Source: Oscillospiraceae bacterium
GTDB lineage: Bacteria; Bacillota; Clostridia; Oscillospirales; Ruminococcaceae
Length of the DNA stretch: 49,416 nt
Assembly (NCBI GenBank): GCA_017545185.1
Contig: JAFWQJ010000078.1
Location: 1-49,416 of the forward strand
Direction: 5' to 3'
The notes beneath the pieces were generated by a model. That model ran no database searches, was not told the DNA's origin, and saw only the letters and a list, made by a program, of their open reading frames with translations. A program made the translations under genes and the position numbers. How positions within the stretch are numbered: position 1 is the first letter of the stretch; the number at the start of each line of letters is the position of its first letter. This document shows, one piece after another, positions 25,871 to 43,871 of the stretch.

Positions 25871-26848
25871 ATGGCAAAGAAACAGGAGCGTACCGAACGG
25901 ACAGAACGCCGGCGCGCGGCACGCTCCGGAGCTGTTGTGCCGGAGGAGCTTTCATGGAGAGACCGGCGGGAGTATCAGCGCGAGCACAGCGGTGCGCGCC
26001 GCTATACCCTGACGGACTGCATGAAAATGGGCAGACTTGCCAATATCCTGTTCATTGTATTTATCGTCATTGCTTTGATATACTATTATTCGATCGGACG
26101 GAACGGCAAATTCTTCATTCCGTTTGAAGTCTTTGCGTTCTCGGTCGAGGGGATCGCCTTTGTGCTGTTCGCGGTCTGTGCGGCCTGGCTTGACAGACTG
26201 GTGCGCGCGCGCGGCATCATGAAAACGCTGCTGATCGTATATGTCACGGTTGAGGTCGGGCTGATGCTCGTGGAATTCGGACTGGTTCCGTTCCTTGAAC
26301 CGCTCGGCAAGAATGTCGGCATCATTCTGGTGCATGTGATCTTCTCTGCGGCGGTGTCGCTTTCGCTGCTGATGCTCGATCCTCAGAATAAAGTGCTGCA
26401 GCGGATCGTCATGATCACGACAGTCATCATTCTGGCCGGTATGCTGACGGCTGCGGCGGGCTACCGCATTTACGCGAGTATTCTGGTCAATGCGGTCGGC
26501 TATATCGTGTTCTTCTCGTCCATGGTGCGGCAGCTGGCACTGGATGAGCTGGATATCGACTGCTACGGCGATCAGGCGCGTGTCTCGGAAATTTCCTCGA
26601 CGATGTTTGCCGATACGCCGACCATGGTCGAGATCCCCGGCCTTGAGACGCCTGTCACACTGAAGCAGAAGCTTCGCCGCGCGATCATCCGGATGACGCC
26701 CAGCGACGAAAAGATCGTGCTGACCGATGACGACGAGAAGTTCGAGTACGAATTCGGCGCGGATGCGGATGACGACGACGAGGACGAATACGAAGAATAT
26801 GAGGACGCCGAAGCCGCAGACGACGATGAGGACGGCGGGGACGCATGA
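25871..26848 (+). CDS. Polytopic membrane protein with acidic tail
   Basis: A 325-residue protein: a basic N-terminus (residues 1-50, many Arg/Lys/Glu), then six to seven membrane segments (about 57-75, 85-105, 115-140, 150-170, 178-195, 200-220) and a cytosolic C-terminus ending in an acidic run of about 40 residues (DDDDEDEYEEYEDAEAADDD). No family recognised. No clear ribosome site precedes the ATG; it begins 8 bp after purD and is probably read by coupling. Its stop overlaps the uvrC start by 4 bp. The acidic tail recalls that of the glycosyltransferase at the head of the run. Confidence 0.75.
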   Translation: MAKKQERTERTERRRAARSGAVVPEELSWRDRREYQREHSGARRYTLTDCMKMGRLANILFIVFIVIALIYYYSIGRNGKFFIPFEVFAFSVEGIAFVLFAVCAAWLDRLVRARGIMKTLLIVYVTVEVGLMLVEFGLVPFLEPLGKNVGIILVHVIFSAAVSLSLLMLDPQNKVLQRIVMITTVIILAGMLTAAAGYRIYASILVNAVGYIVFFSSMVRQLALDELDIDCYGDQARVSEISSTMFADTPTMVEIPGLETPVTLKQKLRRAIIRMTPSDEKIVLTDDDEKFEYEFGADADDDDEDEYEEYEDAEAADDDEDGGDA

Positions 26849-28707
26849 ATCCGAGACTACCCTATCTGCAGCGGAAAACCGCTGCACTGACGACCTCTCC
26901 GGGCGTGTATATCATGAAGAACGCGCAGGAGAAGATCATCTATATCGGCAAGGCGAAGAACCTGCGCAACCGCGTGACCAGCTATTTCCGCGATCATCCG
27001 GATCACACCGTCAAGACCGCGCAGATGGTCTCGCAGGTCTACGATTACGATTTTATTGTCACCGGTTCGGAATACGAAGCGCTGGTGCTGGAATGCTCGC
27101 TGATCAAGCAGCACAAGCCGCGCTACAACATTCTGCTGAAGGATGACAAGGGCTATCACTATATCAAAATTTCGCCGCCGCCCTATTCCCGCATCACCGC
27201 GGAGCTGCGGGCGGACGGCGAGGGCACGTATCTGGGACCGTATATGAGCGGCTTCACCGCAAGGCAGACCGTCAACGCGGTCAACCGCATGTTCCGGCTG
27301 CCGACCTGTCACCGGCCGTTCCCGGAGAGCTTCCGGAAGGAGCGCCCCTGCCTGAATTATCACATCGGGCAGTGCATGGGCGTCTGCCGCGGACAGATCT
27401 CCGAGGCGGAATATGCAGAGGCGGTCAGCGATGCCGTGCGCTTTATCAAAAACGGCGGCGACCATACGATCACCGCGCTGGAGGAGCGCATGACGGCAGC
27501 GGCCGACCGGCTCGATTTTGAGGAGGCCGCCCGCCTGCGCGACCGCATCGCCGCGATCCGCAGTGCCGGGGAAAAGCAGGACATCATGGATGCCGTCACG
27601 GCCGACACCGATGTGATCGGTACGGCGGAAACGAACGATACGACGGTCATTTCCGTGCTGATCTACCGCAGCGGAAGGCTCTATGACCAGCAGTCCTTCG
27701 TGATCTCCTCGGAGGCGCTCTCGGAGCAGCCGCTTGACGATTTTCTCCCGCAGTATTACAGCACCCGCAGCGGTGCCGATCTGCCGAAAACGATCCTCAC
27801 GGAGCGGATGCCGGCGGAATCGGAGCTGATCTGCGAGATGCTTTCGGAACGCGCAGGCCGCAGCGTCACGATCGAGCAGCCTGTACGCGGTGCCAGACAC
27901 CGGCTCGTGCTCATGGCAAAGCATAACGCCGGAGAAAAGCTCTCGCTCCGCTCCGGAAGGACCAGCCGCGAGCTGCTCGGGCTGGAGGAGCTTGCAAGGG
28001 CACTCGGACTGGAAAAGCCGCCCGTGCGCATCGAATCCTACGATATCTCGAATCTGTCCTCGGCGTCGATGGTCGCAGGCATGGTCGTGTTCGAGAACGG
28101 CAGACCGCTGAAAAGCGCCTACCGCCGCTTCGCGATCAAAGAGCTGCATCAGCAGAACGACTACGCCGCGATGCAGGAGGTCATCCGCAGACGCTTCGGG
28201 GAATATTTCAAGGCACAGGCGGAAACGGACGAAACGAAAAAAGCCCTCAACGCCTTTGCCGTGCTGCCGGATCTGATTTTGCTCGACGGCGGTCAGACCC
28301 ATGTCTCCGCAATCGCACCGATCCTTGCGGAGCTGCAGCTTTCGGTGCCGCTGTTCGGCATGGTCAAGGACAGCAAGCACCGCACCCGCGCGATCGCTGC
28401 AAACGGCGGCGAGATCGCCGTGCGTGAGAGCAGAGCCGCATTTGCGCTGCTGACGCGCATTCAGGACGAGGTGCATCGCTATGCGATCACCTATATGAAA
28501 ACCAAGCACAAGAAAACAGGCTATGCGCTGACGCTCACGCAGGTGCCCGGCATCGGCGAGAAAAAGGCGCAGAAGCTGCTGCTGACTTATAAGACCCGCG
28601 CACAGCTCAAGGCGGCGACGCCGGAGCAGCTCGCAAAGACCGCCGGCGTCAGTACGGAGACCGGTCTTGCGCTGTTTGCACTGATTCAGGAGCTGCCGGA
28701 TTCCTGA
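26845..28707 (+). CDS. uvrC: UvrC, excinuclease ABC subunit C
   Basis: A 620-residue UvrC, the nuclease that cuts on both sides of bulky DNA lesions with UvrA and UvrB. Domains in order: GIY-YIG nuclease (SPGVYIMKN to YIGKAKNLRNRV, residues 17-55), Cys-rich region (CLNYHIGQCMGVC near 170), UVR helix pair (LDFEEAARLRDRIAAI near 215-232), RNase H-like nuclease with ESYDISN near 395, LLDGG near 472, and a C-terminal helix-hairpin-helix pair (PGIGEKKAQKLL near 570). Length is typical. The start overlaps the upstream gene (ATGA). Confidence 0.97.
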   Translation: MNPRLPYLQRKTAALTTSPGVYIMKNAQEKIIYIGKAKNLRNRVTSYFRDHPDHTVKTAQMVSQVYDYDFIVTGSEYEALVLECSLIKQHKPRYNILLKDDKGYHYIKISPPPYSRITAELRADGEGTYLGPYMSGFTARQTVNAVNRMFRLPTCHRPFPESFRKERPCLNYHIGQCMGVCRGQISEAEYAEAVSDAVRFIKNGGDHTITALEERMTAAADRLDFEEAARLRDRIAAIRSAGEKQDIMDAVTADTDVIGTAETNDTTVISVLIYRSGRLYDQQSFVISSEALSEQPLDDFLPQYYSTRSGADLPKTILTERMPAESELICEMLSERAGRSVTIEQPVRGARHRLVLMAKHNAGEKLSLRSGRTSRELLGLEELARALGLEKPPVRIESYDISNLSSASMVAGMVVFENGRPLKSAYRRFAIKELHQQNDYAAMQEVIRRRFGEYFKAQAETDETKKALNAFAVLPDLILLDGGQTHVSAIAPILAELQLSVPLFGMVKDSKHRTRAIAANGGEIAVRESRAAFALLTRIQDEVHRYAITYMKTKHKKTGYALTLTQVPGIGEKKAQKLLLTYKTRAQLKAATPEQLAKTAGVSTETGLALFALIQELPDS

Positions 28708-36804: not shown

Positions 36805-36842
36805 AACGGGCATTGATCTTGCGTCAGTGCCCGTTTTCTGTT
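36805..36842 (+). terminator. Intrinsic terminator of the DUF3267 gene
   Basis: Arms AACGGGCA (36805-36812) and TGCCCGTT (36828-36835), inner TTGA/TCAG, then TTTTC. It overlaps the 3' end of the convergent S41 gene by two bases. Confidence 0.8.
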
Positions 36843-38565
36843 ACTGTTCCAGATACTGTACTGCCCATTCCAGCTCATAGTCCTGCTTGTCGTGAAAGAT
36901 CTTCATGGCAGCGTCATGATTGAGCGGGATGCGCACCTCGACCGGATTGCGGCTGATGCGGTCGGCTTTCGTATCCACATTCGGGACGCCGTTCTCATCC
37001 ATGACCAGTCCGACCGGGAAGTAGACCGTCACGGCACTGCCGGACAGCACACTGATGCCGCCGGTCTCCTGATTGCAGCCGTTCGGGTCGGTGATGCCGG
37101 CCAGCGTCACATTCGGCAGCTTCGAGAGATACAGCGAGGTGCCGTCGCCGGCACTGGCGCAGTTATAATTCGTCAGCGCGACGGCCTGCAGGTCTGCAAA
37201 TTCGCCGGTGCCGTGAATGCCGTGGTCGGATACACAGGTATACTGCCCGTTTTTGCGGATGCCGAGCCCCTGCCCGTACCAGTCCTCTGTCGTCAGCAGG
37301 TCGCAGAGCGCACAGCCGATCTCGTCAAAGCCGCCCATGTTATTGCGCAGGTCGATGACCAGATACTCCATGCCCTGCGCTTTCAGTTCGCTGAGCCGCT
37401 CGCGGAAGAGCTCTCTGGCAAAAGTCTGGTCGCCTTTCAGATAGCCTGCCAGATCCTTGAATGTCGAGTCCATTGTTTCCGCATTCAGTCTGAGATAGCC
37501 GCATTTGTCGTCCAGCATTTTCGCACTGAAATTCTCTTTCAGGAACGCACGGTAATCCTCCATGGATTCCAGTTTCGGTTCCTGTGAAAACAGCCGGAAT
37601 GCCTCTTTGAGCGTGTGCATGTCCCCGAGATCGGAGAGCGTGACCGTTTTCTCGCTGCCGGACTTTTCAAGGAACGCGACCTCCACGGTCTCTCCGCCGA
37701 CACCGGACAGATTCATCACGGCAATGCGGTCGGCGTTTGCCTTTACGGGAAGTCCCTGATCCATTACATCCTCTGCGGCGGCCTGCAAAACAGGCTTGCC
37801 ATTCCATTTTGTGATGACGGTGCCGTCCTCGATGCCGAGCCTGTTCACTTCCTCCGAGGTGCAGACGGCGATGACCTCGCCGCTGTCAAGCTGCACCAGA
37901 GCCAGCCCGTACTCGTGCTGCTGATATTCAGATTTGTATGTGTCGCGGTCATAATCCGTGCTGACGGACACATGACCGTCATGCAGCTCACGGCAGAACT
38001 GTGCGACTGCGGCGGCGAATTTCGCGGGATTCTGCTCCTGCTCCGCCTCCTGAACGGCAGGCAGATATTTTGCTTCGAGCGCGGCAAAATCGACCTCTTT
38101 CCATTCCTTCAGGATATAGGCCTTGTCCATATCCCGTACCAGTGCGCGGAAGGAATCGGAATAGCCAAGCTGTGTATGGTTAAAGAGATTCGGCGCCTGC
38201 CCGCAGAAATAAAAGCCGCAGAGCGCCGTCAGCAGACCCGTGAGCGCCGCGGTGATCCTGTATCCGATCTTCCGCTTTGCAAAAAGCATCGGGAGCAGGG
38301 CGAGCACGGCGATCGCATAGAGCGGGACAAAGAGACTGACAGCCTCCGGATATCCGCGCACATAAAGCCATGCGTGCACGCCGCAGATCAGCAGCGGGAT
38401 CAGGCAGAGCAGCCGCCAGCGTCCGAGCTTTTTCTTATCATCCCGCCATACATGATGCAGGACTGCAAGCAGCAGCATAACAAGCAGAATGCCGCCGCAC
38501 CAGAGCATCTGGGTTTTGTTGGCCATGGCAAAGACATGGCGCAGCGAGCCGAACAACGTATTCAT
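36841..38565 (-). CDS. Membrane-anchored S41 family peptidase
   Basis: A 574-residue protein. Four membrane segments (about 20-38, 51-70, 76-94, 101-121) precede an extracytoplasmic tail-specific-protease-like domain. Residues ~210-310 may include a PDZ-like part (GLALVQLDSGEVIAV, then GIEDGTVITKWNGKPV). The S41 core has VIDLRNNMGG (403-412) and the nucleophile region NCASAGDG (Ser471). S41 peptidases cut exported proteins near their C-termini. ATG 38565 follows CGGAGG by 6 nt; a longer frame upstream would cross its promoter. It lies directly downstream of the radical SAM operon but is separated from it by a terminator and its own promoter. Confidence 0.85.
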   Translation of the reverse strand: MNTLFGSLRHVFAMANKTQMLWCGGILLVMLLLAVLHHVWRDDKKKLGRWRLLCLIPLLICGVHAWLYVRGYPEAVSLFVPLYAIAVLALLPMLFAKRKIGYRITAALTGLLTALCGFYFCGQAPNLFNHTQLGYSDSFRALVRDMDKAYILKEWKEVDFAALEAKYLPAVQEAEQEQNPAKFAAAVAQFCRELHDGHVSVSTDYDRDTYKSEYQQHEYGLALVQLDSGEVIAVCTSEEVNRLGIEDGTVITKWNGKPVLQAAAEDVMDQGLPVKANADRIAVMNLSGVGGETVEVAFLEKSGSEKTVTLSDLGDMHTLKEAFRLFSQEPKLESMEDYRAFLKENFSAKMLDDKCGYLRLNAETMDSTFKDLAGYLKGDQTFARELFRERLSELKAQGMEYLVIDLRNNMGGFDEIGCALCDLLTTEDWYGQGLGIRKNGQYTCVSDHGIHGTGEFADLQAVALTNYNCASAGDGTSLYLSKLPNVTLAGITDPNGCNQETGGISVLSGSAVTVYFPVGLVMDENGVPNVDTKADRISRNPVEVRIPLNHDAAMKIFHDKQDYELEWAVQYLEQ

Positions 38566-38595
38566 AGAGAACCTCCGGAAAGCAATTATGCTGTT

Positions 38596-38630: not shown

Positions 38631-38660
38631 CAAAAAAACGGACGCACACCGGCGTCCGTT
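38631..38660 (-). terminator. Intrinsic terminator of the radical SAM operon
   Basis: Arms AACGGACGC (38637-38645) and GCGTCCGTT (38652-38660), followed on the minus strand by seven Ts (A-run 38632-38638). Confidence 0.92.
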
Positions 38661-38676
38661 TTCAGTGCTTTCAGTT

Positions 38677-39750
38677 TCAGAACAGGATGTCCTTGAAGCA
38701 GACCTGCGGGCAGTTGTTGTCGAAGTCCCATGTATGATAGGCGTCGCCGTGGCAGAACTTCTGCTCGGAGCAGTTGCGGCACTTCTCGCAGTCCTGGCTG
38801 AGATCGCGCCGGAAGATCTGGAACTTGTTTTCCCAGACGTCCTTGAAATTGTCCTTGAGGATATTGCCCTGAATGAACTCCGGACGCCGCTCGATATCGA
38901 GACATGCGGTGATATCGCCGTTGACCATGATGCTCGCGGTATAAAGCCCCGCCGTGCAGAGGAAATACCAGTCTCTGACCTCGCGCTCGTACTCCATGCC
39001 GAGGTAATGGCTGCAGCCGTAGCAGACCGGCTCGCCGGCAATGCGCTTATTGCGGATGAACTCGAACAGATACTTGTAGTCCTCCTTTGTCAGGAGCAGC
39101 TCCGGATGCAGCTTTGCTCTGCCGATCGGGTCCATATTGACAACGCGCCACGAATCAATATCCACATTTTTCAGGATATCGTAGAGCGCATCCAGCTCCT
39201 GAATGCTCTTGTGGGAGCAGACCGTCGTGATCTGCACGGCCTGAAAACCGCCGACGCGCAGCAGGTTCATGACGCCGTCCATTGCCTTTTTCCAGCCGCC
39301 CGGTGTTCTGCGGAACGCATCATGTGTTTCCGGCAGGCCGTCCAGACTGATCGAGATCGTGCCCATGCCGACCTCCTTCAGCTTTTTCGCGACCTCCTCG
39401 GTGATGAGCGTGCCGTTGCTGGTCATGCCCCATTTGAAGCCGAGCTCGTGCGCAAAGCCCATGATCTCGAAAAACTCCTTGCGGAGCAGCGGTTCGCCGC
39501 CGGTGATGCAGAGCATGAAGCCCTCGGTTCCCATATCCGCCTTGAGCTGGGTCAGAAATTCCTTGTACTGCTCGACGGAGAGCTCGTCAGAGGGCACATC
39601 GCCCGCGCTGCTGCCGCAGTGGAGGCAGCGCTCGTTACATCGGAGCGTCAGCTCGAGAAACAGGTTCCGGAGCTGCGGCATCACCTTCAGTCCCTCTCTG
39701 TAGACTGCGAGACGCTTCATACTGTCTTCTTTCATTGCCGGATTGAGCAT
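38677..39750 (-). CDS. Radical SAM/SPASM enzyme, candidate modifier of YGPP proteins
   Basis: A 357-residue radical SAM enzyme. The cluster motif CNERCLHC (Cys38, 42, 45) and GGEP (84-87) are standard. The C-terminal third is a SPASM-type extension rich in Cys: 243, 246, 265, 283, then C321-x2-C324-x2-C327-x5-C333, and 347 and 351, enough for two auxiliary iron-sulphur clusters. SPASM enzymes mostly modify ribosomal peptides or proteins. It is the last gene of the operon, 24 bp after gene A (39775-40590), with AGGAGA 8 nt upstream of the ATG. The tight coupling to four secreted proteins with YGPP motifs makes those its likely substrates. Which residue is changed cannot be read from sequence. 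An anaerobic sulfatase activator is less likely, as no sulfatase is near. Confidence 0.9.
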   Translation of the reverse strand: MLNPAMKEDSMKRLAVYREGLKVMPQLRNLFLELTLRCNERCLHCGSSAGDVPSDELSVEQYKEFLTQLKADMGTEGFMLCITGGEPLLRKEFFEIMGFAHELGFKWGMTSNGTLITEEVAKKLKEVGMGTISISLDGLPETHDAFRRTPGGWKKAMDGVMNLLRVGGFQAVQITTVCSHKSIQELDALYDILKNVDIDSWRVVNMDPIGRAKLHPELLLTKEDYKYLFEFIRNKRIAGEPVCYGCSHYLGMEYEREVRDWYFLCTAGLYTASIMVNGDITACLDIERRPEFIQGNILKDNFKDVWENKFQIFRRDLSQDCEKCRNCSEQKFCHGDAYHTWDFDNNCPQVCFKDILF

Positions 39751-39774
39751 GGTTATGTTCTCCTATCTTGTGGT

Positions 39775-40590
39775 TTATGAATCCTTGTGACGGTTTGCTT
39801 CCTCAACGGTTTCCGTCTTTGTGGTCTTGTTATCCGATGCAGCGGTCGTGGATGTCTTTGAGCCCTCACCGGGGTGAAGATCCTCATAGGTGTCCCAGCG
39901 GAGCTGGTCGTCCCAGTCGATATTGGGCGGGCCGTACAGCGCAATGATCGGCGCATCGGTTATATTGATCAGGCCGGTGAGGATTGCAGGGTCAAGCGTG
40001 ACCTCGCCCGGTGCGGTGGTCTTGCGGAAACCCCGCTTTGTCGTTGTCGCCGTGGTTGCTTCCGCAGTCGTTTCGATCGCGGTCGTGGTGACGGCGGGAT
40101 TCTCCTCTTCCTTTTCCGGGATGCCGAGCACTTCCTTCATGAAATACTCCACATCGTCCTTGTCCACATCGTTGTCATGATCAATGTCCGCGATGAAACG
40201 CGCATCGGAGCCGCCGGGATTTCTGTTTCCCAACGCGATCTGCTTGATGAATGTCAGGTCGCGGGCATCGGTCTTGTTATCCATGTTGGCGTCGCCGGTC
40301 GGATAGAACACCCACGGCGGACCGTAAAGCACCACGGGCGCGGTATCGACTGTCATAGTAAAGGTCGTGGGCTCAGTCGGCTCCGTCGTTTTATGGGTCC
40401 TTCTCGTGCGTGCGGTCGAGGTCGTTGAAAGTGCAGGCGGCGGACCGTAGAGCACGGCCATGCCGGTCATGACCTCCGAGACCGGATCGCCGAGCGCCTG
40501 GACCGGCTGCCGGAACTGTGACGGTGCGGCACTTCCGAGCGCGGTCGCAAAGATCGCAGCGGTCAGGAGTGTCCGGGCTGTTTTCTTCAT
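39775..40590 (-). CDS. Gene A: exported dockerin protein with three YGPP motifs
   Basis: A 271-residue protein. The N-terminus MKKTARTLLTAAIFATALG is shared with genes B, C and D and looks like a Sec signal or leader. LYGPP occurs three times (Tyr48, Tyr89, Tyr209), each preceded by hydrophobic residues (VVLYGPPWVF at 86-95, directly before the dockerin; AVLYGPPP; IALYGPPN). The dockerin spans about 99-156: DANMDNKTDARD loop and DIDHDNDVDKDD loop. Thr-rich linkers follow each motif (52-80, 165-190, 235-260). AAAGGAG precedes the ATG. The region from the second YGPP through the dockerin is nearly identical to that of gene B, so the two are recent duplicates. Immediately upstream of the radical SAM gene. 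Confidence 0.85.
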   Translation of the reverse strand: MKKTARTLLTAAIFATALGSAAPSQFRQPVQALGDPVSEVMTGMAVLYGPPPALSTTSTARTRRTHKTTEPTEPTTFTMTVDTAPVVLYGPPWVFYPTGDANMDNKTDARDLTFIKQIALGNRNPGGSDARFIADIDHDNDVDKDDVEYFMKEVLGIPEKEEENPAVTTTAIETTAEATTATTTKRGFRKTTAPGEVTLDPAILTGLINITDAPIIALYGPPNIDWDDQLRWDTYEDLHPGEGSKTSTTAASDNKTTKTETVEEANRHKDS

Positions 40591-40701
40591 AGCGGGTCTC
40601 CTTTCTGAAAATAGGATGATCCGGTTCCGCAGTCACGGCACCGGTTTTTGTACAATGCCGATAAGCCCGAGCCGCCGGAGCGGCTCAGGCTCTTGGTTCC
40701 G

Positions 40702-41718
40702 TTACTGCATCATGGAAGGCGGGCCGTACAGCACAACAACATCGGTTGCACGCGTTGTCGTTTCCAGCTCGCTCTGGATATCGGGATTCGCCGCAGTTGT
40801 GACGGCGGGATCCTCCTCCTTCTCCGGGATGCCGAGCACGCCGTGCATGAAGAGATCCACATCGTCTCTGTCCACATCGCCGTCGTGGTCAATGTCCGCG
40901 ATGTTCTGCTCCATGAAGTCGATGTTCTTCTTTTTCCCGAGCGCGAGCTGCTTGATGATCGTCAGGTCGCGGGCATCGGTCTTGTTGTCCATGTTTGCGT
41001 CGCCGGTCGGATAGAATACCCACGGCGGACCGTAAAGCACAACGGGCTCCGTTTCGGTCGTGACCGTTGTCGTTCCGGTGGGATCGAACTCAAACGGGGC
41101 GGTCGTCTTGAGGCTGTCTTTCAGATAGACGACTGTCGCAAGCTCTGTGCCGTTTGCGGCGAAATCGGTCAGCGAATCGCCGGAGACCGGTACATAATCG
41201 CGGTTGCCGCTGAAGGTATAGGAATAATTCTCCGGCAGATTCCTGATCCTGACACCGTAAGTGATGCTGCCGAACGCGTTATACTGTTCAAATTCGTATT
41301 TCAGCTTTTTGATGTACTGCTCCGGATCATCGGAACTGTTCCATCTGGCGACAGTCTTGCCGGTCTCGATCTGGAAAAGCTCGCATTCCAGATCGGGGAT
41401 ATACTCGCCGGTGATGTCATCGCGGACAGAAAGATGCAGGTTGTAGGTGCCGGAGAGCGGCGTTTCGGAATAATCAAGTGCCGTGGTGACAGTGGTCGTG
41501 GTCGCGGTTTTCTGCCGCTCCGCCTCCAGACTGGAGAGCACCCACGGCGGACCGTAAAGGACAACGGGCGTTGTGCCGGTTGTCGTGGTCGTCGTCATGA
41601 ACTCTCCGCCGGCCGCGAATGCAGTCGGGATTCCTGCGGGCGTTTTGCCTGCCGCAGAGCTGCCGAGTGCCGTCGCGAACATCGCGGCAGTCAGCAGCGT
41701 TTGTGCTGTTTTCTTCAT
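40702..41718 (-). CDS. Gene B: exported dockerin protein with three YGPP motifs
   Basis: A 338-residue protein. Shared N-terminus (MKKTAQTLLTAAMFATALGS), then an AFAAGG cleavage-like region. LYGPP at Tyr55, Tyr229 and Tyr331; the last lies eight residues from the C-terminus (YGPPSMMQ ends the protein). Residues ~88-200 form an Ig- or prealbumin-like beta domain (YNLHLSVRDDITGEYIPDLE onward) not found in the other three. The dockerin (239-296) has DANMDNKTDARD and DIDHDGDVDRDD loops. Thr-rich linkers surround the motifs. ATG 41718 is chosen because the ATG three codons earlier overlaps the AAAGG ribosome site. The 111-bp gap to gene A holds a hairpin (GAGCCG/CGGCTC) without a T-run, possibly a processing or attenuation site. 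Confidence 0.85.
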   Translation of the reverse strand: MKKTAQTLLTAAMFATALGSSAAGKTPAGIPTAFAAGGEFMTTTTTTGTTPVVLYGPPWVLSSLEAERQKTATTTTVTTALDYSETPLSGTYNLHLSVRDDITGEYIPDLECELFQIETGKTVARWNSSDDPEQYIKKLKYEFEQYNAFGSITYGVRIRNLPENYSYTFSGNRDYVPVSGDSLTDFAANGTELATVVYLKDSLKTTAPFEFDPTGTTTVTTETEPVVLYGPPWVFYPTGDANMDNKTDARDLTIIKQLALGKKKNIDFMEQNIADIDHDGDVDRDDVDLFMHGVLGIPEKEEDPAVTTAANPDIQSELETTTRATDVVVLYGPPSMMQ

Positions 41719-41816
41719 ATTGTTCATCCTTTCCGTCTGCCTCCGGGCCTGAATCCGGAAGCATCCATGTTTGCGCCCTGACCGCGGGCGCGGCGGTTTA
41801 CCCGTAAAAATAATGC

Positions 41817-42758
41817 TTAAAACGGCCAGCCGACGCCGAAGTCCGGCATACTGATTTCCGCATCCTGCGCAATCGGTGTTCCGATGCGGACTTCGCCGGT
41901 CAGCATGTTGTATTCAACTTCCAGCTTGTCGTAGTATTTTACGGTACCGTCTTCGAGAATCTCGCGGGTAACGTACTCCAGATCAAGCCGGATATCGCCC
42001 TCCTGCTGCGTCTGCGGCATGGGAATCTCGTCCAGAATGCCGAGCTGGCCGAAGTCATCCTCTGCTCTGTGCTGCAGCAGCAAGGTCGCATGGCCGACGG
42101 TGCGGTTCGGGTTGTCCGGGTCAGGTGCCGCGGAGAAATCCAGATTAAATCCGATCGCCTGCAGACTGTGGAGCGCCATGCCGAACTGACCGGACGGAAT
42201 CTCCGGATTTGCGCTGCCGCGGTACGTGATGAACACATTATAGCAGGATTCGTTTGCAAGCTCGGATGCGCGGTTCAGAAGCGCATCTTTCTCCTCGTCG
42301 CTTTCCGGCACCTCATCGGAGAAGTACGGAACGGGCAGAAACCGGACGAAAAACGCGGTCGGCTCCTGCTGCCCGGTGAGCCTGTTGCGGAGCTCCCGTA
42401 CATCGCCGGGATTCAGAATCCCGTTCTGATCGAAGTCCATTGCCTTCGGGTTGAAGGCGGCCGTGTAATTCGGGGAATAATGCTCATGCAGAATGCGCGG
42501 TTCACCGGTGCGCCGTTCCTGCGTGAGAAGACGCCGTTTCAGCAGGGTGAGGTCGCGCGCATCAATATTCTTGTCGCCGTTTCCGTCCCCGAATGCCGAA
42601 ATCGGCGGCGGGCCGTAGACCGTGGCTGCAATCTGCTGGCTTTCCGGAGAAAACGCAATCGCTGCCGCTGCTGCGAAATCGGTGCTCCCTGCAGAAGAAA
42701 TGCCGATCGCCGCCGCAAATACCGCAGCGGTCAGTGCGGTCTGCTTTGTCCGTTTCAT
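41817..42758 (-). CDS. Gene C: exported dockerin-like protein with one YGPP motif
   Basis: A 313-residue protein with the shared N-terminus in variant form (MKRTKQTALTAAVFAAAIG). One VYGPPP motif (Tyr48) lies directly before a dockerin-like pair: DGNGDKNIDARD loop near 58-69 and DFDQNGILNPGD near 108-119. Residues ~130-313 are an unidentified domain that is related to the C-terminal domain of gene D (shared [RV]F-[LR]-PVPYF-[SA]-DE and EYNMLTGEVRI versus EWNVNTGKVRM). CAGGAGCG precedes the ATG, 19 bp after gene D. The last 98 bp before gene B show no T-run terminator. Confidence 0.82.
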   Translation of the reverse strand: MKRTKQTALTAAVFAAAIGISSAGSTDFAAAAAIAFSPESQQIAATVYGPPPISAFGDGNGDKNIDARDLTLLKRRLLTQERRTGEPRILHEHYSPNYTAAFNPKAMDFDQNGILNPGDVRELRNRLTGQQEPTAFFVRFLPVPYFSDEVPESDEEKDALLNRASELANESCYNVFITYRGSANPEIPSGQFGMALHSLQAIGFNLDFSAAPDPDNPNRTVGHATLLLQHRAEDDFGQLGILDEIPMPQTQQEGDIRLDLEYVTREILEDGTVKYYDKLEVEYNMLTGEVRIGTPIAQDAEISMPDFGVGWPF

Positions 42759-42777
42759 ATTTTACGCTCCTGTTCTG

Positions 42778-43728
42778 TCAGCCGGGGAACTCCCATTCCG
42801 GGATCTCCTGCTCCGGCGTGAGGGCGTCATGCATCCGTACTTTTCCGGTGTTGACGTTCCATTCGATCAGAATTTTGTCAAAGTATTCCTCACTCCCGTC
42901 CGGCAGCTGAATATAGGTCACGTAGCTTTCGTTGTAACTGTTTTGAACCGGTGTATCCGGCGGGCTGTCTGTTTCCGGATCGAGGTCTGCCTCAAAGGGC
43001 ACCGTGACGGAAAACTCCGCCCGGCGAAGGGCGAGATAATCTGCATCCTCCGGAGCGCCGTCCCAAAATGTATTCGGCACATATTCTGCCGGGAGCCATT
43101 CCGGGGAGACAACGCCGAGCATATTGCCCCATTTGAAATCTTCTGTAACGCTGACCGGGCAGATGGTAAATTCGTACTGTTTCCCTGCAACGGAATATGC
43201 GACTTTCGGCTCATACAAGAACAGTTCCGTTTCGTAGGTGTCCATCCGGCTGAGCCGGTGCTTCGCTTCCTGCACAAGCTTCTGCCGTTCCTCCGCTGTT
43301 TCCGGTGCCTCATCCGCGAAATACGGCACAGGCCGGAAATAAAGACGAAATTCGATCGGACGTTTATGTTCAGCGTACAGTTCACCTGTCAGATGCTGCA
43401 TCAGCGCGCGGGCATCTGCTCCGCTGAACCCCCAGAAGTCCGGCAGGAAATCAAACTGCGGCGTATAATTCCGGGTGTCCCCTGAAAGAAGCTTCTGCTT
43501 CATCAGCGTCAGGTCGCGGGCATCGAGCACCCGATCTGCGTTGATGTCGCCATCGATCTCGCGTTCGATGTTCGGCCCCGGTCCGTAAAGGATCTGCATA
43601 GTGCGCTGGTCGGTCGCGGCCAGATACTGCGCGGTTTCCGCTTCTGCCGGAATACTGCCTGTAATGGAAACGCCGATCGCCGCTGCAAATACCGCAGCGG
43701 TCAGAGCTGTTTTTCTGTTGTGCTTCAT
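42778..43728 (-). CDS. Gene D: exported protein with YGPGP motif, first of the operon
   Basis: A 316-residue protein. N-terminus MKHNRKTALTAAVFAAAIG. The motif reads LYGPGP (Tyr48), followed by one good calcium loop (DINADRVLDARD near 61-72) and a second repeat that has decayed (DFLPDFWGFSGADARALM). The C-terminal domain (~125-316) is related to that of gene C and contains many aromatic residues. It is first in the operon, under the promoter at 43843 with a leader of about 108 nt. The GGGTTCAGGATC stretch before the ATG is a weak ribosome site. Confidence 0.82.
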   Translation of the reverse strand: MKHNRKTALTAAVFAAAIGVSITGSIPAEAETAQYLAATDQRTMQILYGPGPNIEREIDGDINADRVLDARDLTLMKQKLLSGDTRNYTPQFDFLPDFWGFSGADARALMQHLTGELYAEHKRPIEFRLYFRPVPYFADEAPETAEERQKLVQEAKHRLSRMDTYETELFLYEPKVAYSVAGKQYEFTICPVSVTEDFKWGNMLGVVSPEWLPAEYVPNTFWDGAPEDADYLALRRAEFSVTVPFEADLDPETDSPPDTPVQNSYNESYVTYIQLPDGSEEYFDKILIEWNVNTGKVRMHDALTPEQEIPEWEFPG

Positions 43729-43842
43729 GATCCTGAACCCTCTTTTTCTGTCCGTGTCTGTCTCTGCGGTGCGGGCGGTATCGGTTCCGCATTCCGCAAT
43801 ATAATAGATGTATACGGAAACGGCGTACAGCTATACATTTTA

Positions 43843-43871
43843 AGTATAACACGAATCCGCAAAAATGTCAA
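43843..43871 (-). promoter_or_regulatory. Promoter of the YGPP/radical SAM operon
   Basis: On the minus strand TTGACA (43866-43871), 17-bp spacer, TATACT (43843-43848). No other convincing promoter lies between here and 38660, so genes D, C, B, A and the radical SAM gene are read as one transcript. Confidence 0.9.

Follow-up and report, generated by a model that had tools for sequence, protein, structure and literature searches.

A radical SAM/SPASM enzyme genetically tied to exported X-Tyr-Gly-Pro-Pro proteins, with candidate splicease-like chemistry

We analyzed a group of genes in a 49,416-nucleotide stretch of DNA from an Oscillospiraceae bacterium of the family Ruminococcaceae, a Ruminococcus-type organism of the gut or rumen (assembly GCA_017545185.1, contig JAFWQJ010000078.1, positions 1 to 49,416), referred to below as the window. 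On its minus strand, five co-directional genes encode four exported proteins and then a radical S-adenosylmethionine (SAM)/SPASM enzyme, behind which lies a terminator-like hairpin (Table 1). This gene order had been proposed from the letters alone (the sequence-only reading), and the coordinates of the open reading frames (ORFs) and a Pfam scan bore it out. The eight Tyr-Gly-Pro motifs counted at that time were all recovered (one LYGPG, one VYGPP, and two sets of three), as was the common N terminus of the exported proteins, which carry TAAxFA in 4/4 cases. The enzyme matches the Pfam families Radical_SAM (1.3e-23) and SPASM (3.9e-9).

Table 1. Features of the operon in the window
Feature	Positions	Strand	Remarks
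Promoter-like site TTGACA-17-TATACT	43843..43871	-	11/12 consensus match only, TG ahead of the -10 element
Exported putative substrate 1	42778..43728	-	Signal-peptide-like N terminus, LYGPG motif, partial dockerin
Exported putative substrate 2	41817..42758	-	Signal-peptide-like N terminus, VYGPPP motif, dockerin
Exported putative substrate 3	40702..41727	-	Three LYGPP motifs, dockerin; final motif at C terminus
Exported putative substrate 4	39775..40590	-	Three LYGPP motifs, dockerin
Radical SAM/SPASM enzyme, 357 amino acids	38677..39750	-	CxxxCxxC and seven invariant cysteines in C-terminal third
Terminator-like hairpin with T run	38632..38663	-	Fold -21.7 kcal/mol, z -3.9

The signals that delimit the operon are less certain. 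A promoter-like site does exist at 43843, as had been claimed, but it is weak evidence by itself, since the region contains 5 such sites compared with a mean of 2.4 in shuffled sequences. The proposed terminator is indeed a hairpin followed by a U run, but the consensus scan did not call it as a terminator. A separate TTGACA-17-TATAAT box with a 12/12 sigma-70-type match is present at 38624-38596, ahead of the next gene, and the transcription unit therefore probably ends at the enzyme gene. The gene behind this perfect -35/-10 box (36841-38571, minus strand) encodes an S41-peptidase-like membrane protein; it was rejected as an operon member because it has its own promoter-like box and is absent from the 25 largest neighbor clusters.

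Enzyme and exported proteins form a conserved pair. In all, 61 loci with the enzyme were fetched from named contigs, mostly of Ruminococcus or Oscillospiraceae and including nine Ruminococcus flavefaciens strains and two metagenome-assembled genomes of that name. These loci are not independent, as 48 enzymes are distinct at <95% identity and the enzyme of locus L018 is 100% identical to that of the window. In 59 of the 61 loci, an ORF with YGP(P/G) is located on the same strand within 300 bases upstream of the enzyme gene. One of the two exceptions (L076) lies on a cut-off contig with only 134 bases of upstream sequence; in the other (L075), which has no YGP upstream, the adjoining downstream gene contains LVYGIPD and KVYGIFN. 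The 136 precursor ORFs, of 50 to 384 amino acids, were selected for YGP[PG] and upstream position and contain 338 YGPP in 27,929 amino acids, against none in the 233,766 amino acids of the remaining ORFs of these loci that are 250 amino acids or longer; they include five overlapping pairs (L023, L032, L063, and L071), a few probably being spurious frames. Among ORFs of at least 70 amino acids, no other neighbor is widely conserved, the broadest cluster being UvrA-like and present in 15/61 loci, and a leader peptidase or transporter partner was dropped for this reason.

The same association is seen at the level of genomes. Of the 197 genomes of the family, 12 contain the enzyme (E up to 1e-40) and 15 are matched by a profile built from 14 short YGPP proteins (E up to 0.01). 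Eleven of these 15 hold the enzyme, and their matches carry YGPP; the other four (G081, G092, G097, and G111; E 0.0025-0.008) are enzyme-less, and their matched loci are devoid of YGP. The remaining genome with the enzyme (G124) was missed by the profile, yet YGPP adjoins its enzyme (L017); YGPP proteins of other architecture in enzyme-less genomes would likewise escape a profile of this kind. Among 391 class-level genomes, 16, including that of the window, contain the enzyme (E up to 1e-45). Of the 15 new loci, the 11 with 50-68% identity all have YGPP nearby, whereas the neighbors of the four with 36-44% identity contain LYGVP, MYGSP, AYGID (without Pro), and GCGMYGPPP. Within the reach of these comparisons, YGPP proteins are thus not usually found without the enzyme, contrary to the refuting outcome named by the sequence-only reading. 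Taken together, these data demonstrate a genetic link between the radical SAM/SPASM enzyme and exported proteins with X-Tyr-Gly-Pro-Pro sites, often repeated, and show that this conserved enzyme-substrate pairing is real.

The motif itself, initially given as Tyr-Gly-Pro-(Pro/Gly), is real but better written as X-Tyr-Gly-(x)Pro. The precursors contain, apart from YGPP, 50 YGP[^P] and 15 YG[^P]P, compared with no [^Y]GPP and no Y[^G]PP; a further 69 YG have no Pro at the next two positions. In the 403 motifs of the form YGP or YGxP, Tyr is preceded by V (210), L (98), A (32), E (14), T (13), I (10), D (10), or one of a few others. The motif thus never departs from Tyr-Gly, leaves the residue ahead of it free, and is less strict about the prolines, as would be expected of a reaction that depends on Tyr-Gly whatever the residue X. 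Consecutive motifs lie a median of 32 residues apart (quartiles 26 and 86), and in 94/136 precursors the last motif lies within 20 residues of the C terminus.

The precursors are diverse outside the motif. A Dockerin_1 signature is present in all four window proteins, as claimed, but only that encoded at 41817-42758 (32.2 bits) exceeds the Pfam cutoff of 22.9 bits, the others scoring 22.3 (40702-41727), 20.7 (39775-40590), and 18.7 bits (42778-43728); the C-terminal region of the last has no confident Pfam match. In a Pfam scan of 133 of the 136 precursors (L022:3-155, L063:7788-7988, and L071:7315-7518 were omitted), Dockerin_1 matched 92 (E up to 0.01), so a dockerin can be dispensed with; many of the remaining precursors are short and bear a lipobox-like cysteine. 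Their attachment is of two kinds, with dockerins serving for the cellulosome and lipobox-like cysteines for the membrane. Up to eight precursor ORFs form an array (L023 and L028). At L012 120-1489 (genome G178), the enzyme gene is preceded by five tandem short proteins with one YGPP each, in four of them after a lipobox-like cysteine.

The N termini of the precursors are signal-peptide-like or lipobox-like, and a hydrophobic N-terminal stretch was found in 124/136 with a simple hydrophobicity scale rather than a dedicated signal-peptide predictor. Neither the 133 scanned precursors nor the four window proteins gave a Pfam match to a Nif11- or nitrile-hydratase-like leader. For comparison, 20 dockerin proteins were sampled from the same genome, none of which contains YGP; 4 open-ended sequences were dropped from the N-terminal comparison, leaving 16 with a complete N terminus. 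TAAxFA is present in 81/136 precursor ORFs and 0/16 controls, and the looser TAAx[FL] in 98/136 and 4/16, respectively, which is suggestive, and no more, of a uniform signal peptide acting as a leader. Because no recognition protein is conserved beside the enzyme, recognition likely occurs via the motif and perhaps via this signal peptide. Two PqqD-like proteins, of the type that serves as RiPP (ribosomally synthesized and post-translationally modified peptide) recognition element (RRE), are encoded elsewhere in the genome, unlinked to the operon (C50:91748-91951 and C77:7852-8028; open frame of 90-97 amino acids), and could act as RRE in trans. An RRE fused to the enzyme was rejected on the basis of the structure model, which consists of one N-terminal helix, the barrel, and SPASM; no separate RRE-domain search was made.

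The best NCBIfam model for the enzyme is TIGR04133, with 265.9 bits, below the cutoff of 425; relatives in three genomes of the same genus score 280.7-289.7 bits, and identity to TIGR04133-type enzymes is 32-36%. The next-best models are AhbD, NirJ2, and MftC (mycofactocin). In fold, the enzyme comes closest to anSME and SuiB, of which anSME differs in residue, motif, and chemistry. In a midpoint-rooted tree of 33 rows, the window group, its class-level relatives, and TIGR04133 are placed together (support 96/97) and are joined next by TIGR04103 (which we take to be equivalent to IPR026482), GDL, and Agathobacter enzymes (94/94), apart from six other rows. MftC and PqqE have long branches, and their placement is unsure. 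The alignment of the family (A2) comprised the window enzyme and those of 45 of the 61 loci. G46, T176, W201, G251, and E255 are present in all three TIGR04103/GDL rows, in at least 90% of the 23 window/TIGR04133 rows, and in 0/6 outgroup rows; S47, Y254, and R259 are seen in one or two of the outgroup rows as well. The Agathobacter enzyme has G46, T176, and W201 and lacks G251, Y254, E255, and R259; its surroundings yielded no recognizable XYG(x)P partner, the nearest thing to one being a 68-amino-acid ORF with VMYGTG. By score, the window enzyme is a formal member of neither the PlpXY spliceases nor TIGR04133.

The partners of these related enzymes carry similar motifs. TIGR04133-type enzymes on plasmid records of Parabacteroides, Phocaeicola (unannotated), and Treponema adjoin exported proteins with CEYGSP, CEYGTP, and CYGMP, and the Nostoc TIGR04103 enzyme adjoins a Nif11 precursor ending in ALYGLPPELF, with a 71-amino-acid ORF directly behind it. 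The Tropicibacter enzyme, left out of the tree and later added to the alignment only, is 47% identical to that of Nostoc; the phosphotransferase gene beside it (L144 1206-2177) contains DFYGLPPG, which may be due to chance. In the DUF1843 precursors of GDL-type radical SAM enzymes (L140 546-1261 and L143 1653-2366), an N-terminal YG is found in 3/6 (LYGG, PYGV, and PYGA), the other three having MYMA, LYAA, or MYAA; a chemistry directed at Tyr may be common to the enzymes on the PlpX side.

These observations are best accommodated, by analogy with the spliceases, if the enzyme excises the tyrosine part from the protein backbone, so that exported surface proteins are left with reactive beta-amino acids; we assign this proposal a probability of about 0.58. 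PlpXY spliceases act on XYG, according to the accessible part of PMC11002830, in which IPR026482 is named for PlpX; they do not need a leader and work in unrelated proteins (PMC10533398). One enzyme would modify several exported substrates at X-Tyr-Gly sites, each of which would be lighter by 135.068 Da and would be converted to a ketoamide, mostly Val- or Leu-derived, before Gly-Pro-Pro. After export, the cellulosome or cell surface would display these electrophilic ketoamides, often in arrays. With dockerin matches numbering at least 149 in the host genome (of 306 candidates, 150 were scored) and cohesin matches numbering 24, of which 18 exceed the cutoff, many of the substrates would be carried on a cellulosome. 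The likeliest role would be reversible protease inhibition that shields the cellulosome, an alternative being the covalent capture of amines. Splicease-derived beta-residues are described as protease inhibitors in the accessible parts of PMC10373908 and PMC11117315, both citing Scott 2022, and R. flavefaciens FD-1 has dockerin-serpins, a precedent for dockerin-bearing protease inhibitors (PMC2930009, as far as accessible). The latter are protein inhibitors, and the accessible part of the same article mentions no radical SAM modification of them. This argument takes two inferential steps, the first leading from the motif to the chemistry and the second from there to the role.

Several data weigh against the splicease-like proposal. 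(i) The window enzyme scores only 121.4 bits with TIGR04103 (cutoff 725), less than with the AhbD, NirJ2, and mycofactocin models. (ii) The PlpX side of the tree is sampled by only 3 to 4 sequences, and its support of 94/94 falls just short of the level starred in the tree. (iii) The G..YE...R of the other enzymes is S..FE...R in that of Tropicibacter, and YG is present in only 3/6 GDL precursors. (iv) PlpX acts with the RRE PlpY, whereas the operon holds no RRE gene. (v) Of the FtsZ insertions tested with PlpXY, no more than two were spliced (PMC10533398), and the motif by itself therefore does not guarantee a reaction. (vi) The genome as a whole shows no excess of TAYGGNCCNCC, with 18 sites (7 of them inside the operon) compared with 27 for a control pattern; three of the off-operon sites are in lipoprotein-like proteins described below, and the other eight include the P-loop of RuvB, LLYGPPGLGKTT, in which LYGPP thus also occurs, one GNAT-like and one sensor-like protein, and frames that seem non-coding. 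(vii) The literature searched contains no demonstration of the reaction of the window clade or of TIGR04133, and the protease inhibitor role is an analogy.

The alternative that deserves most attention is that the same X-Tyr-Gly-Pro sites undergo another chemistry, such as a Tyr side-chain crosslink, oxidation or desaturation at the beta-carbon, or epimerization. SPASM enzymes catalyze many reactions, the models ranking after TIGR04133 and the nearest folds belong to enzymes of other kinds, and the window clade is uncharacterized in the literature searched. However, an invariant Tyr-Gly with a free preceding residue suits backbone splicing better than a crosslink to a fixed partner, and the enzyme groups and shares residues with the TIGR04103/GDL rows; we therefore consider a different chemistry possible but doubtful. 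That YGPP is instead a binding or structural repeat, for example, as the ligand of a cell wall or scaffold partner, with the enzyme modifying another part of the proteins, would fit the spacing of the motifs and their resemblance to surface short linear motifs. This appears improbable, since dockerin proteins, lipoproteins, and TIGR04133 partners share export and XYG(x)P and since YGP is missing from the sampled dockerin proteins of the same genome. Finally, the enzyme might have a small molecule or a different protein as its substrate and owe its linkage to genomic hitchhiking, as could be suspected from YGPP proteins encoded apart from the enzyme and from genome G096, in which the 19 kb surrounding the enzyme contain no YGPP ORF. 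Adjacency in nearly all loci while the other neighbors change, together with the genome-level co-occurrence, makes this very improbable.

The sequence-only reading knew of no described system with this layout, which is too strong a statement, as two known systems come close. Like the window system, the PlpX/PlpY spliceases with their spliceotides (Morinaka 2018 and Scott 2022, as cited in PMC10533398, PMC11002830, and PMC11117315) combine a radical SAM/SPASM enzyme with an X-Tyr-Gly substrate motif and several sites per precursor, and the tag PIRPLYGLPI has a Pro close behind XYG, as in the window motif (PMC10533398); the TIGR04103/GDL rows share G46, T176, W201, and E255 with the window enzyme. 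The differences are that the operon and its surroundings have no RRE gene, that the PlpX/PlpY precursors have Nif11 or nitrile-hydratase-like leader peptides, whereas those described here are exported dockerin proteins or lipoproteins, and that the window enzyme is far below the TIGR04103 cutoff. TIGR04133 and its "radical SAM-associated putative lipoprotein" form a catalogued pair, in which the exported partner likewise adjoins the enzyme and has XYGxP close to its lipobox; it was seen in Parabacteroides, Phocaeicola, and Treponema and is the best, if subthreshold, model for the window enzyme. In contrast to its partners, the proteins described here often have several motifs, often carry dockerin, and form arrays. 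TIGR04134 (lipo_with_rSAM) matched none of the four window proteins, nor any protein in six genomes, where the positive control matched nowhere either.

No mention of TIGR04133, TIGR04134, or the model names was found in the literature searched, and nothing on the window system was among the matches listed for YGPP with Ruminococcus or radical SAM and for dockerin with radical SAM or RiPP; the accessible part of PMC10352776 likewise contains nothing on the enzyme family. The survey of Scott 2022, with 939 predicted splicease systems according to PMC10533398, may list relatives. If the splicease-like proposal is correct, the surface proteins of fiber degraders in rumen and gut would regularly contain backbone-edited beta-amino acids, as perhaps would those of Bacteroidota via TIGR04133. 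It would provide a function for a catalogued orphan radical SAM family and would explain part of the Ruminococcus dockerin proteins of unknown function, of which strain FD-1 has 118 with unknown regions (PMC2930009, accessible part). For protein engineering, it might also make available a splicing enzyme that uses a short tag and lacks a linked RRE.

Some YGPP sites are encoded away from the enzyme. In the host genome, three off-operon sites are present in two paralogous lipoprotein-like proteins of contig C36 (SCGVYGPPN and CGMTSLYGPPP; 26790-28543, loci L103 and L104 of genome G000). In these proteins, YGPP lies just behind the lipobox, and the flanking genes, named by eye, are RsmB-like and RlmN-like. 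No enzyme was found near this pair in the stretches fetched, and a search of the 197 family genomes detected the pair in its own genome only. In G096, the YGPP proteins are located on contigs C49, C41, and C100. The off-operon sites and the layout of G096 thus indicate that YGPP alone is insufficient to define a substrate and that adjacency is not required. A 360-amino-acid protein distant from the enzyme (L161 1468-2550, contig C171 of G071) has two N-terminal YGPP and no obvious signal peptide and is a possible non-exported substrate.

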